A DNA stretch of 60,057 bases from positions 1 through 60,057 of the forward strand of contig JAHHHH010000042.1 of NCBI GenBank assembly GCA_019359415.1. The letters are read 5' to 3'. Under the pieces are notes generated by a model. It was not told the DNA's origin. It saw only the letters and a list, made by a program, of their open reading frames with translations, and did no database searches. Each line of letters begins with the position of its first letter. Within the stretch, counting starts at the first letter, position 1. The translations under genes and the position numbers were made by a program. Below are positions 1,796 to 7,816 of the stretch, piece by piece. The stretch is from Iphinoe sp. HA4291-MV1. Its GTDB lineage: Bacteria > Cyanobacteriota > Cyanobacteriia > Cyanobacteriales > Nostocaceae.

Positions 1796-1867
1796 GCCCG
1801 TGTAGCTCAGTGGTAGAGCACACCCTTGGTAAGGGTGAGGTCACGAGTTCAATCCTCGTCACGGGCT
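1796..1867 (+). tRNA. tRNA-Thr (GGT)
   Basis: A 72-base tRNA. The acceptor GCCCGTG pairs with CACGGGC, the anticodon stem CACCC/GGGTG encloses TTGGTAA with anticodon GGT, and the T-loop is GTTCAATCC. CCA is not encoded. A transposon-end-like sequence begins 30 bases downstream, so this gene may have served as an attachment landmark. Confidence 0.96.
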
Positions 1868-1897
1868 TTCGGTAACAAAACCCAGTCTTTCAGAAGG

Positions 1898-2045
1898 TGT
1901 TGATCGCTAAATTATTTGTCCGCTTTGACAGATTAATGTTCGCTTTGACAAATTAGTGTCAATTGGGCGCACTAGTATTGCATTGACAAATAATTGTGGT
2001 TCTTCAGTACATAGTATGCTAAATTACAGCGTATTGCTGTAATTT
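1898..2045 (+). mobile_element. Probable left end of a Tn7-like (type V-K CAST-like) transposon, relic
   Basis: The segment starts TGTTGATCGCTAAATTATTT and carries spaced direct repeats: AATTATTTGTCCGCTTTGACA-type units at 1910-1930 and 1931-1950, then TTTGACAAATTAGTGTC, and a further TTGACAAATAATTGTGG at 1983-2000. Repeated TGACA/AATTA-TGTC units behind a terminal TGT are the signature of TnsB-binding ends in cyanobacterial Tn7-like elements such as the Scytonema V-K CAST; this likeness is from memory of those ends. A perfect 10-base inverted repeat with a 5-base loop lies at 2021-2045. No tnsB, tnsC, tniQ or cas12k is present in the window, so this is a remnant or only one boundary. The position 30 bp past tRNA-Thr fits tRNA-directed insertion. 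Confidence 0.6.
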
Positions 2046-2488
2046 TGGACACGGTGGATGGTGCTGCGATCACCCACACCTCCTCCCTCATTACAAAACT
2101 TAAACAAATCAAAGCTAGGCTGCTGCACGACTTGCTCACACGTGGGTTAGATGAGAATGGACAATTGAGGGATGCAGAGCCGCATCCAGAAGAGTTTAAA
2201 GATTCGGCGCTGGGGAGAATTCCGAGAGAATGGGAGGTTGGCAAACTTTCAGATTTTTACGCTGTTCCAGCACGTGATGGACTATATAAACCTGCTAAAT
2301 TCTATGGTCGAGGAGCTTTAATGATTCACATGCCTCAGATGTTCAGAAGCTTAACAATTGATGTATCTGATGCTGCTCGTGTTGTAGAAGTTAACCCTAA
2401 TGAATTAGAGCGTTATAGGTTAGAGCGAGGAGATTTAGTTTTTGCTCGCCGTTCTTTAAATTTAGTTGAATTCTCGATCACGGCATAG
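2045..2488 (+). pseudogene. Type I restriction-modification specificity subunit (HsdS) fragment
   Basis: The product contains the central conserved helix region of HsdS (KLKQIKARLLHDLLTRG, then LGRIPREWEVGKL), which normally separates the two target-recognition domains. The start of the second recognition domain follows and the frame ends after about 148 codons. HsdS is usually ~400 residues, so the first recognition domain and most of the second are missing. The only start is a TTG inside a palindrome, so it is unlikely to be expressed properly. No hsdM or hsdR is nearby. Its place just inside the transposon-like end suggests it was cargo. The 3' side is cut near 2465 where unrelated minus-strand sequence begins. 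Confidence 0.75.
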
Positions 2489-3457: not shown

Positions 3458-5047
3458 TTAAGCTAAGCCATTATCAACGATGAACTCCCAAGATTGACTT
3501 TTAGTACTACCAAACTTTAACTGGATCCCAGATTGTAAAGGGACTTCCTGACGATAGATTTGTTGCCAACCATTATCTCGTAAAACCCAGGTTGTGCCGT
3601 AGGTGGATAAATCTTGCAGGTAATAGGTTCGCACGGCAGTTGCTCCTGTCAGAGTATTTCGACATAATATCTCAGCATGGCGTTTTGAAACCGAAGGTTC
3701 TGGAATGACAATATCGTTGTCTGGCGTACGTCCAATGCGCGTAACTCCTGGTCGCAATGACCAAATCTTACCTCCAGGGGAGAGCGATCGCAAACAAGCG
3801 TTGGGAAGCGAAGAAGCTATTCCTGGGATAGAAGTTTCTGGGAGTTCTGTTATACCTTCATCAAAACTCCTGATCAATTCTCCATTGTAGTCTGGATGTA
3901 GGTAGAGAATCGGTAAAGTCCAAGCGGGTTGATTGAACCTGTAAGTTGTCAATAGCTTTTGCCTTGCTTCAGCAACAGCTTCATCAATTGGCTTGCGCGA
4001 TCGCAAAGCAGCAGCAAAGGCTTGAATAAAAGTGTGGCTTTCTGATGGTGCTATTTCATCACGCATCGCCAAAACTGCAGGCATACCTTGACGTATCAGC
4101 ACTTCTGCTAAACTGCTATGAGATATAGCTTGGTGATTAGCAGCAGCCGGCTGTGCTCCCCAACAAGAATTAAAAACTGTCAGTTTTACACCTGTACGAG
4201 TCAAAACTTGGGCTAATTCCATCCCATTGAGAGTCGTACCTGGTCGCAAAAACAACAAACCTCCGTCTGGTTCTTGCTTACCATGACCGGCATAAAACAA
4301 GACGTTGTATGCCTTAGTTTCTAGCTGTTGAATCAACTCCTGTGGAGTTGGTTGCAGGAGTGTGTTCACCATACAGGGTGCATAGCCACTGTAATTGCTA
4401 GCCACAATAGAGCCATTGGAAAGGGTTTGTTCTAGGATAGCTGCTTCTTGGTCAAGTTGCAGCTGCTCTTTATCTTCACCCAAAACCAACAGTATGTTTA
4501 ACGCCTGTTCTGAGCGTAAATACGGTAGAGGTTCAACTTCACTCGTGGTACGACTAAATAGTATGTGTTGCGAGAGAGAAATGGCAGCTTGACCTGCTTC
4601 GCGCTGCATGATTTCCCAAGGCAAAGCAATCAGATTCGGGTCACGAATTTCCAGTCGCACTCGCAAACGGGTATGCTGACCCATAGCAATCCCACGACTG
4701 CGTTCAAAGCTATTGAGAATTTGTCCGTCAAATACCCAACCCCATAGGCTAACTCCCAAATATTGCATTAAACGAGCGGTGTAATTGGTTGGTTGACCGG
4801 AAGTTGGTACAACCAAATCCAATGGGAGAGGATTTGCTGGGTTAGGCGTTGCTCCTGGGGAAATATCTAAGCGGCTGTGACCAGCAAACATTTGCTGCCA
4901 CTCAAGCCATGCTTGAGTCAGATGTGGAAGCCATACACAGTCACGCAGAACATTGCCACTGGGATAGGGAGCATTCACCACCCAAATGGCGAAATTATCT
5001 TTGCCGATGTTGACGAGACGGGCGATCGCCAGGTTAAGGGATGGCAT
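3458..5047 (-). CDS. CHAT-domain (caspase-like) protein with C-terminal FHA domain
   Basis: About 529 residues from ATG 5047, chosen over a TTG at 5086 because no better signal lies further upstream. The central CHAT peptidase domain has the histidine motif YAGHGK (His about residue 255, codon 4283-4285) and the cysteine motif NSCWG (Cys about residue 295, codon 4163-4165), so the catalytic dyad looks intact. The last ~100 residues form an FHA phosphothreonine-binding domain (RIGRTPDNDI, SVSKRHAE, LSTYGTT). There is no signal peptide, so it should be cytosolic. Known: CHAT proteins are caspase-clan proteases, some acting in regulated cell death or phage defence. Inferred: FHA binding to a phosphorylated partner controls or targets the protease. 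A PP2C phosphatase gene lies upstream on the same strand, about 450 bases away. Confidence 0.9.
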   Translation of the reverse strand: MPSLNLAIARLVNIGKDNFAIWVVNAPYPSGNVLRDCVWLPHLTQAWLEWQQMFAGHSRLDISPGATPNPANPLPLDLVVPTSGQPTNYTARLMQYLGVSLWGWVFDGQILNSFERSRGIAMGQHTRLRVRLEIRDPNLIALPWEIMQREAGQAAISLSQHILFSRTTSEVEPLPYLRSEQALNILLVLGEDKEQLQLDQEAAILEQTLSNGSIVASNYSGYAPCMVNTLLQPTPQELIQQLETKAYNVLFYAGHGKQEPDGGLLFLRPGTTLNGMELAQVLTRTGVKLTVFNSCWGAQPAAANHQAISHSSLAEVLIRQGMPAVLAMRDEIAPSESHTFIQAFAAALRSRKPIDEAVAEARQKLLTTYRFNQPAWTLPILYLHPDYNGELIRSFDEGITELPETSIPGIASSLPNACLRSLSPGGKIWSLRPGVTRIGRTPDNDIVIPEPSVSKRHAEILCRNTLTGATAVRTYYLQDLSTYGTTWVLRDNGWQQIYRQEVPLQSGIQLKFGSTKSQSWEFIVDNGLA

Positions 5048-5159
5048 GGATTCGTTAATCTTGGTTAATCTAAGAGGTAGAATCAAATAATTTCAAATAA
5101 CAATTTGAAAAGGCGAAAATTTTTGCCTTTTGAGTTTTTCATTTAAACTTATCACCCTT

Positions 5160-5400
5160 CTCAATAGCCCAGACGCACTCGCGTTGGCGCAAGCCTCCGC
5201 AGGACTTACGGGTATCTCCTGCAGCCCATCGGTACGGCTGCGCGGAACACGAGTGCGTGTCCAAAGGACAAGGACAAGGAAACACACCAGACGCTACTGT
5301 GTTGGCGCAAGCCCTCGCAGGACTTACGCCAGTCACAAGGGCGCGGGAAACCTGCCTGCAGTAATGGTCTCACCACAACGGACTGTCTCCCCTCCTTCAA
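5160..5400. repeat. GC-rich interspersed repeat cluster between PP2C and CHAT-FHA genes
   Basis: This 5087-5497 gap has no credible gene. It contains two diverged copies of a block with GTTGGCGCAAGCC and GCAGGACTTACG (5182-5212 and 5302-5330), plus GGGCGCGGGAAACCTGCCTG. Related blocks occur at about 24100, 32800, 40440, 44745, 47800 and 52155. The many stops and the recurrence argue for a non-coding repeat family rather than a gene. Confidence 0.7.
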
Positions 5401-5497
5401 GGCTGTCTCACCTGTATTATTTCAGGCTTCTACCAGTTTATCGAGTTTTTGACGAAGTGCTGCTCTTCGGTTAACGGGTGTCACCTATTTTAATACC

Positions 5498-7816
5498 TTA
5501 CTGCTTAGGCACAGACTTTGGCTTAGACTCAGGTGCAAATTTTTCAACAGAAGGGATAGAAGCATCTTTTGACGGCTGCTGACATTGGCTCACCATTTCT
5601 GGTTTAGCTTTAGGAACGTTCAGTGATTTGAGTTTGGAAGATAAAATTCTGACTTCATCTCCTGGGCTGAGTAGTTTTTTCGCTGTGGAAGAAGTTGATT
5701 GTGAGTTTGATGAACTTGCTTCTTCGATAATTGAGCAGACTCGCAAGTATGTCCAAGTGTCTTTCTCTATTTTCTGTGTCTTAAGAATTTGCAAGACACT
5801 ATCTCTTGGAGCAAGAATACTTCGGCTGCGAGGTGTAGTCGTCGTCATGAATTCTATTTCGCTGTTAGTCTGAATCACCTCTTTTGCACTCACATTAGAG
5901 CTGCCCGAACTGCCCTGAGAATTACTTATGATAGGTGTGTTTGTTGGACTTGCTACGGGACGAGATTTCCAAATTTTCGGGATAGGGAGTCGTCCCAACT
6001 GCCACAGGTATCCCAATAAACCTCCTCCTAATATGACTAGTGACAATACAATGAGCTGTAGCGGTACTTTTATACCTTTGGAGGACTTACTTGTTTGGAT
6101 GACCTGAGTTTTCTGATTTTGATTCACTGCTGATGCAATTTGTGCCGTTCTTATCGAACTGTCAGCAGCTGCTGGTAGGGTGGAGAGGTCAGCAAGGGCG
6201 GGTTTAAGGGTTGGTTCTGGTTCTGAGTATTTAACTTGCACTTGGCAGTGTACGAGCGCGATTGTGACATTATCATGTCCATTTTGCTCATTCGCTATTT
6301 TCACTAAGTTATCTGTTACTGTTGCTATATCAATATTTTCCGTAAGAATGGGTAAAATTTCCGTTTCCCAATATTGCTCTACGCGGTCAAAGTCACTCAA
6401 ACCGTCAGAACACAGTAGAAAAACGCAGTCTTCGTCGAGAATAAACCGTTGTGACGTCGGATGCAATGAATTGCTGGCACTCATGCCTAACGCTTGCACC
6501 AAAGATCCGGATGCTCCCTGTTGCACTGCATCCCGGTATGTGGCATAGCCCAACCGTACCTCACGAGAAGCAACATCATCATCTAGGGTCACTTGATAGC
6601 AGCCAAAACGTGTAATCCAGTAAGCACGACTATCACCAACGTGAGCAATGTAAATTTGGTGAGCAATGGGTAATGCCATGACTAGGGTTGTGCCCATGCG
6701 TTGACGCCCCTGCCGATTTTCGTCGTCGTTACGCTCGCTGATGATGTCATTCGCTGCAGCAGCAGCCGTGTCTAAGTGCGCAAGTAGAACAGCGGGGTTT
6801 ATTTGGTCAGAGGGCGATTGAGTCAGGTCATGTAGCTGCTGTTGAATAGTTTCAATGGCTAAATTTGATGCAACATTGCCTCCCTCGTGTCCACCAATGC
6901 CATCACAGACAATCGCTAAGGCTATCGGCTCAGGTGGTTTGCTAATAACGCTGCCACCAGGAGGGTAACAAGCATCTTCATTACGTTGACGACAAGGTCC
7001 GGTGTCACTCTTGGTGGCAATTTTGATTACGGGTGTTTGAGTTTGCCCTAATTCTGCCAACCCTCTATCTATAATGGCAACGAGTTGCTCACCAGAGTGT
7101 ATTTCTTTGGTCATCAAACAACGGCAAATTTCACTCAAAAATTCGGCGATCGCCCCTTTGGCTTCTGGCTGTAACTGCTGCCAAAATTCACCGAGTTGGG
7201 GTAAACCAGGAGAAGTTTGATTGTCATGACGCAATTCCAATAAGCGTACTAACGACCCTTCTGTTCTGACTAACTCTGGATTGAGTAAGCTAGAGGCTAC
7301 GCCTTCACTGGAGAGAGGTTGCCACAACTGAGCTATCTGCCACAAGAAATTCAGTTGGCGTATTGATGTTGCGTTACGCCAAGCTGTGGTTAACTCACAA
7401 GCAACCTGTACTTCCAAAGGATCTGTACTGTCCAGTACAGAAAGCGGAGGTTTTTCTAAAAGTAATATTTCTTTGTTAGAGGTGCCACCAGTCATCGGTA
7501 GCACTCCATACACCTGCGGTACGTGCAAGCGGTGGGGAAACAGCCGCAAGTAAGGTCTGATTGCCTGTAAATGTTCACCATCTGGCGTTTGAGGTGATAA
7601 ACCAGGCTTAGTATCCAAAAGAAGCGCCTTGCTGATAACCAAATAGCGATCGGCTAATAATTCTCCAGCACGAGCTACGCTCTGACCCTCTACCACAGCC
7701 CAGAGGAATCGTTTGGGCAAGGGTGTACGGCACCGTTCGCAAAATTTATGTGTCAGAGGGTTTGGAGCTTGACAAGATTCATTTGGGCAGTAGAGCGTTG
7801 CCGCGTCATTTTCCAT
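5498..7816 (-). CDS. PP2C-type Ser/Thr phosphatase with N-terminal zinc ribbon and a membrane anchor
   Basis: 772 residues from ATG 7816. An N-terminal four-cysteine ribbon (C10, C15, C26, C29) is followed by ~220 residues that may be a degenerate kinase-like fold (LLADRYLVISKAL resembles a kinase N-lobe start, but no catalytic motifs are seen). The PP2C domain lies at roughly 265-540 with RNEDACYPPGG, VCDGIGGHEGG, GDSRAYW, LCSDGLSDF and GHDNVTIAL, so the metal-binding aspartates are present. One transmembrane helix follows (around VLSLVILGGGLLGYLW), then a C-terminal region rich in Ser/Thr. Expected role: Mn/Mg-dependent removal of phosphate from Ser/Thr proteins at the membrane. The CHAT-FHA gene downstream provides a phospho-reader, so the two may act together. 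Confidence 0.93.
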   Translation of the reverse strand: MENDAATLYCPNESCQAPNPLTHKFCERCRTPLPKRFLWAVVEGQSVARAGELLADRYLVISKALLLDTKPGLSPQTPDGEHLQAIRPYLRLFPHRLHVPQVYGVLPMTGGTSNKEILLLEKPPLSVLDSTDPLEVQVACELTTAWRNATSIRQLNFLWQIAQLWQPLSSEGVASSLLNPELVRTEGSLVRLLELRHDNQTSPGLPQLGEFWQQLQPEAKGAIAEFLSEICRCLMTKEIHSGEQLVAIIDRGLAELGQTQTPVIKIATKSDTGPCRQRNEDACYPPGGSVISKPPEPIALAIVCDGIGGHEGGNVASNLAIETIQQQLHDLTQSPSDQINPAVLLAHLDTAAAAANDIISERNDDENRQGRQRMGTTLVMALPIAHQIYIAHVGDSRAYWITRFGCYQVTLDDDVASREVRLGYATYRDAVQQGASGSLVQALGMSASNSLHPTSQRFILDEDCVFLLCSDGLSDFDRVEQYWETEILPILTENIDIATVTDNLVKIANEQNGHDNVTIALVHCQVQVKYSEPEPTLKPALADLSTLPAAADSSIRTAQIASAVNQNQKTQVIQTSKSSKGIKVPLQLIVLSLVILGGGLLGYLWQLGRLPIPKIWKSRPVASPTNTPIISNSQGSSGSSNVSAKEVIQTNSEIEFMTTTTPRSRSILAPRDSVLQILKTQKIEKDTWTYLRVCSIIEEASSSNSQSTSSTAKKLLSPGDEVRILSSKLKSLNVPKAKPEMVSQCQQPSKDASIPSVEKFAPESKPKSVPKQ

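Follow-up and report, generated by a model that had tools for sequence, protein, structure and literature searches.

A decayed left end beside a tRNA-Thr gene in Iphinoe sp. HA4291-MV1, very probably from a type V-K CRISPR-associated transposon

A stretch of about 100 bp downstream of a tRNA-Thr gene in Iphinoe sp. HA4291-MV1 (positions 1898–1997, plus strand) is, with a probability of roughly 0.92, the left end of a type V-K CRISPR-associated transposon (CAST) that was once inserted there. We read it as a V-K end because the tRNA, the PAM and the distance fit such an element, and because the ends nearest to it are linked to Cas12k. The claim is one of descent from a V-K CAST, not of present-day membership; the feature is a relic of a known kind, neither a working element nor a new type. 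Positions refer to the window, the whole stretch of 60,057 nucleotides analysed here, which is an entire contig (C56); the draft genome it belongs to totals 7.36 Mb in 140 contigs. The comparison set comprised 100 genomes, our own and those of 99 relatives. G000 denotes our own genome, G001 and so on the genomes of relatives, L numbers the fetched stretches and C numbers contigs.

The left end

ARAGORN places two tRNA genes on the plus strand ahead of the relic: tRNA-Tyr (1668–1752), which points rightward, and tRNA-Thr (GGT; 1796–1867), which is also matched by Rfam RF00005 (71.5 bits) and is the attachment gene. From the end of tRNA-Thr there are 30 nt to a terminal TGT (1898–1900), which opens a run of four TnsB-like units of the form (TGACA)NATTAN(N)TGT. 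They lie at 1905–1920 (CGCTAAATTATTTGTC), about 1925–1941, about 1945–1960 and about 1983–1998. Both marks of a left end, a TGT start and an array of TnsB sites, are thus found at 1898, as the initial annotation had noticed. It had let the feature run to 2045, which is too long: the end occupies 1898–1997, an ISL3-type repeat 1998–2030, and hsdS begins at 2033. Profile and model matches cover 1898–1961, and the last site is assigned from the unit pattern. The opening bases of the end, TGTTGATCGC, differ from the subgroup form TGTCGATTGC, which counts against the V-K reading.

Such units could in principle be repeats due to chance or part of an ordinary regulatory region that follows tRNA-Thr, and loose matches to the unit are no commoner than expected across the window: one pattern, at up to three mismatches, matched 25 times (17.6 expected, no excess) and a second loose pattern 17 times (22.4 expected). 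The non-random feature is the clustering of the units, not their window-wide frequency. A 63-nt profile built from 18 V-K end sequences, two of which are right ends, scored 38.3 bits at 1900–1960 (E 5.2e-11), whereas 30 dinucleotide shuffles of the entire window never scored above 10.1 bits. A 66-position model of 22 left ends, all from loci with a Cas12k match and with the window left out, gave 44.6 bits (E 6.4e-13; these E-values are rough) and had no other window match at E ≤ 1. Most of the end-only matches listed in relatives also start at the same base: among the matches listed for the 100 genomes, nine cover only the end region, seven of them starting at 1898, one (G024) at 1896 and one (G058) at 1906. 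The profile searches refute chance, which we regard as a negligible possibility.

A right-end profile (five sequences) found no right end in the window; its only match was the left end itself, at 9.4 bits, a poorer fit than the 38.3 bits of the left-end profile, although the two scores are not strictly comparable, as the latter profile includes two right ends and the models differ in length. Left ends of elements that carry Cas12k align with the window end, without gaps, for most of a 63-nt stretch. The nearest end subgroup, TGTCGATTGCCAAATTATTTGTCCGCGTTGACA and its near variants, comes from the Cas12k loci of G080, G013, G058, G022 and G036, together with G043, which has only a cas12k fragment and is 87% identical to the window end over 63 bp. 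A search of the literature for the letters TGACAAATTA listed matches that are unrelated by title.

The same tRNA-Thr site in relatives

A member of the same genus, G004, carries a V-K CAST at the same tRNA-Thr, with cas12k, both a left and a right end, and a 5-bp duplication, AGTTG, on its two sides. Its anchor spacer, behind a truncated repeat (L085), is AGGTCACGAGTTCAATC, identical to window positions 1838–1854, where GTG comes just before it. By this identity, 1838–1854 (plus strand) is the putative 17-nt anchor protospacer of the window, and GTG at 1835–1837 (plus strand), the three bases ahead of the protospacer of the G004 element, is the putative Cas12k PAM, of the GTN type. The match extends to 18 nt, as the final G of the repeat fits too; the anchor itself is 17 nt. 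Between the GTG and 1898 there are 60 nt. Parts of PMC9938897 describe V-K left ends as lying downstream of a tRNA gene directed toward them, with a GTN PAM 46–82 nt away and one exception at 147 nt. The window has this placement: a tRNA gene pointing at the end, a GTG PAM and a spacing of 60 nt. GAAGG at 1893–1897 (plus strand) is, from its position, a candidate left copy of the 5-bp target duplication. The V-K identity proposed in the initial annotation is therefore borne out by the gapless alignment with Cas12k-linked ends, the G004 element at the same tRNA and the PAM distance. Its further suggestion that the locus records a past RNA-guided insertion gains support from the G004 anchor, but in the window itself neither an anchor spacer nor a right end was found. 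An RNA-guided origin is thus inferred from the G004 case and is unreadable from the window copy alone.

The G004 element (L085, L108; contig C1, about 779–788 kb) shows two further features. By tblastn, its tnsB runs into tnsC with an internal deletion, and the host DNA outside its target duplication begins with TGTACAACCAACTACC, which is itself V-K-end-like. Elsewhere, G007 has a 31-aa tniQ fragment 1.7 kb beyond the same tRNA-Thr, and an anchor match to tRNA-Thr is likewise present in G071, which belongs to another family. A scan of named genomes for tRNA-Thr followed by a V-K-type end returned two loci, both in one Prochloraceae MAG, typed by end sequence.

Among the eight genus members, no full left end was found at tRNA-Thr in G001, G002, G003, G005, G006 or G007. 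We considered G001, G002, G003 and G005 as clean empty sites and gave up the word clean, as their flanks start with short end-like strings. The comparison with close relatives that had been proposed yielded occupied and unoccupied versions of the site within one genus. In G001 (L086, 4022–4034) a 13-nt string, TGTTGTTTGCCAA, stands at the V-K insertion point and is followed by an hsd promoter; in G003 (L087) the string at the same place is TATTGTTTGCCAA, again followed by an hsd promoter. It is possible that these 13-nt strings are extreme stubs of a CAST end, or they may be due to chance. At this one tRNA-Thr site, within one genus, ends of two V-K end subgroups are represented (G000 and G004).

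The junction and the hsdS fragment

At 1998 the end gives way to a terminal inverted repeat, GGTTCTTCAGTACATAGTATGC. This repeat also occurs in an element of 1437 bp on a Nostoc plasmid, the protein of that element being an ISL3 transposase (PF01610, E 2.6e-28), and in derivatives of 176 and 191 bp. The window has a single copy (1998–2030, plus strand), from an ISL3-family IS or a small derivative, at the deletion junction; its right edge is approximate, as there is no second repeat. Then hsdS follows at 2033. A search of the plasmid database PLSDB returned six records, all matching within 1987–2028, around this repeat, and none matching the end. As a lone terminal repeat sits between the left end and hsdS, decay probably ran through an ISL3-type insertion.

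A repeated sequence at a junction in a 140-contig draft also raises the question whether the assembly has falsely joined a CAST end to an hsdS piece. The tRNA and its flank up to 1896 are colinear with relatives, and searches of our own genome for Cas12k, TniQ, TnsB and TnsC found no other part of such a CAST available for mis-joining; we consider an artefact extremely unlikely. Positions 1–124 have no match to the fetched genus loci, homology starting at 125 inside an ABC transporter gene, and the mismatch is likely a break or an insertion at the contig edge. Adjoining the relic, at 3458–7816 on the minus strand, are genes for a protein with CHAT and FHA domains and for a PP2C-type phosphatase, for which no DNA match was found near tRNA-Thr in the compared genus loci.

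The hsdS fragment (2033–2465, plus strand) comprises the central conserved region and part of the second target-recognition domain. It is cut off by a short dispersed sequence (2466–2541, no strand assigned), copies of which are 87–89% identical in G014 and G003. No Pfam match to the fragment was obtained at E 0.05, and two Methylase_S domains were not found in this fragment. Its identification comes from alignment to hsdS genes; two of these genes were scanned, and both matched PF01420. The DNA is 92% identical to G003 over 206 bp and 81% identical to the hsdS of a CAST in G097 over 401 bp, extending into the second target-recognition domain. At the protein level the match is 77% over 145 aa to G097 and 50–51% over 141–144 aa to G002 and G012; to G003 it covers only a 76-aa core. 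A search of 60 genomes, our own included, found part of the hsdS in five others (G002, G003, G010, G012 and G070), while G014 matched 2466–2541 alone. With G097, which was added to the hsdS set from a CAST locus, the total is six relatives.

In three of the six (G010, G070 and G097), cas12k lies upstream of the hsd operon in the opposite direction. G010 and G097 have the operon placed between cas12k and tniQ, G070 has it behind cas12k, and in all three it points away from the left end. The other three loci differ in setting: in G012 the operon is behind a left end, in G003 it follows a short end-like stub at the tRNA-Thr of the window, and in G002 no end was found in 16 kb. The G013 CAST also has an hsd operon, a more distant one, which is directed toward the left end, so hsd orientation is not fixed in general. 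The G012 locus is a relic at tRNA-Cys (L127, 14836–14119, contig C2) with a left end, an anchor spacer, one CRISPR repeat, an apparent 3′ end of cvkR (recognised by eye) and hsd genes; no cas12k match was found in the L127 stretch.

Is the hsdS fragment former cargo or a resident gene? Restriction systems are frequent among CAST cargo, according to parts of PMC9938897, and the initial annotation had taken the restriction fragment for cargo. In our judgement, former cargo is probable and the better reading, because three V-K CASTs carry an hsd operon behind cas12k and one of them, G097, shares the second specificity domain. It is also possible, though clearly less likely, that the left end is V-K and the hsdS was resident at the tRNA-Thr locus, one deletion having extended across the transposon and the first part of the hsd genes. 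This alternative stays in play because of G003, which has hsdM-hsdS-hsdR in the same orientation with the hsdS core about 4.3 kb downstream of tRNA-Thr, and of G001, where the hsd promoter and the opening codons stand at this position. The flank before the G001 promoter, however, begins with TGTTGTTTGCCAA, which agrees in 12 of 13 bases with the V-K form TGTCGTTTGCCAA and stands at the G004 insertion point, so the G001 and G003 loci may themselves be CAST remains. Furthermore, it is the CAST-borne gene of G097, not that of G003, that matches the window into the second target-recognition domain. The proposal of cargo is likely; the hsd sequences of G003 and G001 at tRNA-Thr weigh against it.

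Genes, right end and anchor

The initial annotation saw no transposition genes in the window, and tblastn with TnsB, TnsC, TniQ and Cas12k likewise gave no match there. It had advised looking beyond the window for these genes, and the searches of our own genome were equally negative. The Cas12k model (NCBIfam NF038191) had no match in our genome; it matched in 58 of the 100 genomes, in 42 of these above the curated cut-off. The TnsC search was negative in our genome and positive in three of the six other genomes; among genomes with ends but no Cas12k match, it covered G001 and G003 besides our own. No TnsB match was found in our genome in a search run without a positive control, and no TniQ match in a search that gave none in its controls either, with a model that does detect a V-K TniQ protein. 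TniB matches in our genome were considered as CAST TnsC and rejected: they score 20.7–24.2 bits, in open frames of 382–928 aa, compared with 105 bits for a real V-K TnsC.

A partner copy of the GAAGG target duplication was not found. In the comparison of the 110 bp before 1898 with the next 1200 bp, the longest match was 11 nt and did not stand behind a repeat, so no anchor spacer was recognised in the window; it was either lost or never present.

End-only copies elsewhere

With the left-end model, run under stricter filters, 82 of the 100 genomes, all of this group, match at E ≤ 0.01; the E-values are rough. Of the 42 genomes that lack a Cas12k match, our own included, 12 match the left-end model when the threshold, picked after the tables had been seen, is set at E ≤ 1e-8 (G000, G001, G003, G011, G016, G019, G037, G047, G057, G073, G082 and G091). 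Nine end-only loci were then picked by hand: three in G016 and one each in G001, G003, G019, G024, G041 and G057; G024 and G041 carry Cas12k elsewhere in the genome. In stretches reaching 10–17 kb inward from these nine ends, there was no match to TnsB, TnsC, TniQ or Cas12k at E ≤ 1e-3. In seven of the nine, a tRNA gene directed toward the end lies 7–37 nt before it. A repeat stub and a 14–18-nt anchor match to the adjoining tRNA survive in five, and at least those five are therefore V-K scars. In the loci lacking an anchor the longest matches are 7–8 nt; the exception is L186, where the longest match, of 17 nt, represents a TnsB-type site instead of an anchor.

These copies bear on another reading of the window. 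Ends of related Tn7-like clades may resemble V-K ends, and the relic could come from a non-CRISPR Tn7-like (Tn5053-type) element with similar TnsB sites; nine end-only copies with no Cas12k, TnsB, TnsC or TniQ match nearby are what such an element might leave. The initial annotation had likewise stated that recurrence of the sequence at many sites away from any transposon gene would refute its reading. This is partly the case, since end-only copies occur in several relatives, but the repeat stubs and anchor matches in five of the nine speak for V-K, as do the Cas12k linkage of the nearest ends and the fit of tRNA, PAM and distance in the window. We regard a non-CRISPR origin as very unlikely and keep the V-K reading.

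Our own genome has further left-end-like matches, at C84:579–618, beside tRNA-Pro, at C12:29516–29564 and at C52:32013–32069, the last behind what appears by eye to be the 3′ half of a tRNA-Leu; weaker candidates are C138:32113–32155 and one in C133. Those in C84, C52 and C138 adjoin a tRNA or an apparent tRNA 3′ half. In G001 (contig C4), positions 6522–7320 of L191 form a 0.8-kb candidate miniature CAST beside tRNA-Pro: a V-K left end with a repeat stub and anchor match on one side, an inverted end-like sequence (29.7 bits) on the far side, and no CAST gene match; the flanking 5 bp differ (ATAAA and AAACA).

In the parts of four papers on V-K remnants (PMC9938897, PMC8649781, PMC11406308 and PMC10293859; bioRxiv preprints, including Hsieh and Peters, were outside the scope), no end-only scars are reported. 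Degenerate cas12k copies are mentioned in passages of this literature. The part of PMC9938897 that deals with decayed copies looked for them in the surroundings of cas12k or of its regulator genes, and scars of the end-only kind would go uncounted in such a search.

Proposed history and significance

We suggest the following course of events. First, as in G004, Cas12k with an anchor crRNA would have recognised the tRNA gene (1838–1854, PAM GTG), and TnsB would have joined the element about 60 nt downstream. The element likely carried hsdM-hsdS-hsdR, placed behind cas12k and the cas12k regulator and directed away from the left end. An ISL3-family element may then have inserted close to the inner side of the left end, and a deletion reaching from it into hsdS would have removed the anchor spacer, the CRISPR array, cas12k, the regulator and hsdM; the junction is observed, the mechanism conjectural. 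Finally, a second event at 2466 would have removed the rest of hsdS, and the right end would have been lost. The remnant could at most bind TnsB.

With their TnsB sites, stranded V-K left ends could conceivably go on marking used tRNA sites and so bias later insertion through target immunity. The number of end-only copies fits this idea, but the G004 CAST adjoins the end-like TGTACAACCAACTACC, which speaks against strong protection, and we consider the idea very unlikely. If it were true, tRNA loci in this group would be a readable record of past RNA-guided insertions. More generally, about 60 bp are enough to recognise a past V-K insertion whose genes have been lost, and a survey of such scars would yield the rates at which V-K CASTs in natural hosts are gained, decay and retain their cargo.

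Comparison with known systems

The named type V-K CASTs, in the parts of the four papers cited above that name them, include ShCAST, AcCAST and AnCAST. The window shares with known V-K CASTs the terminal TGT, the order and spacing of TnsB sites, a tRNA directed toward the end with a GTN PAM at 60 nt, and a type I restriction gene behind the end. In contrast to them, it retains only about 100 bp of left end; cas12k, tnsB, tnsC, tniQ, CRISPR, anchor spacer and right end were not found. Compared with the G004 CAST, the attachment gene and protospacer are the same and the end position is similar (62 nt from the PAM in G004, 60 nt in the window), whereas the ends of G004 are of a different subgroup, TGTACATCAACTAATTATTTG, and cas12k, the two ends and the target duplication are still present there. 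The relic in G012 is like the window in its retained left end, the absence of a cas12k match in the stretch and the hsd operon behind the end; unlike the window, it keeps an anchor spacer, a CRISPR repeat, an apparent cvkR remnant and hsd genes.
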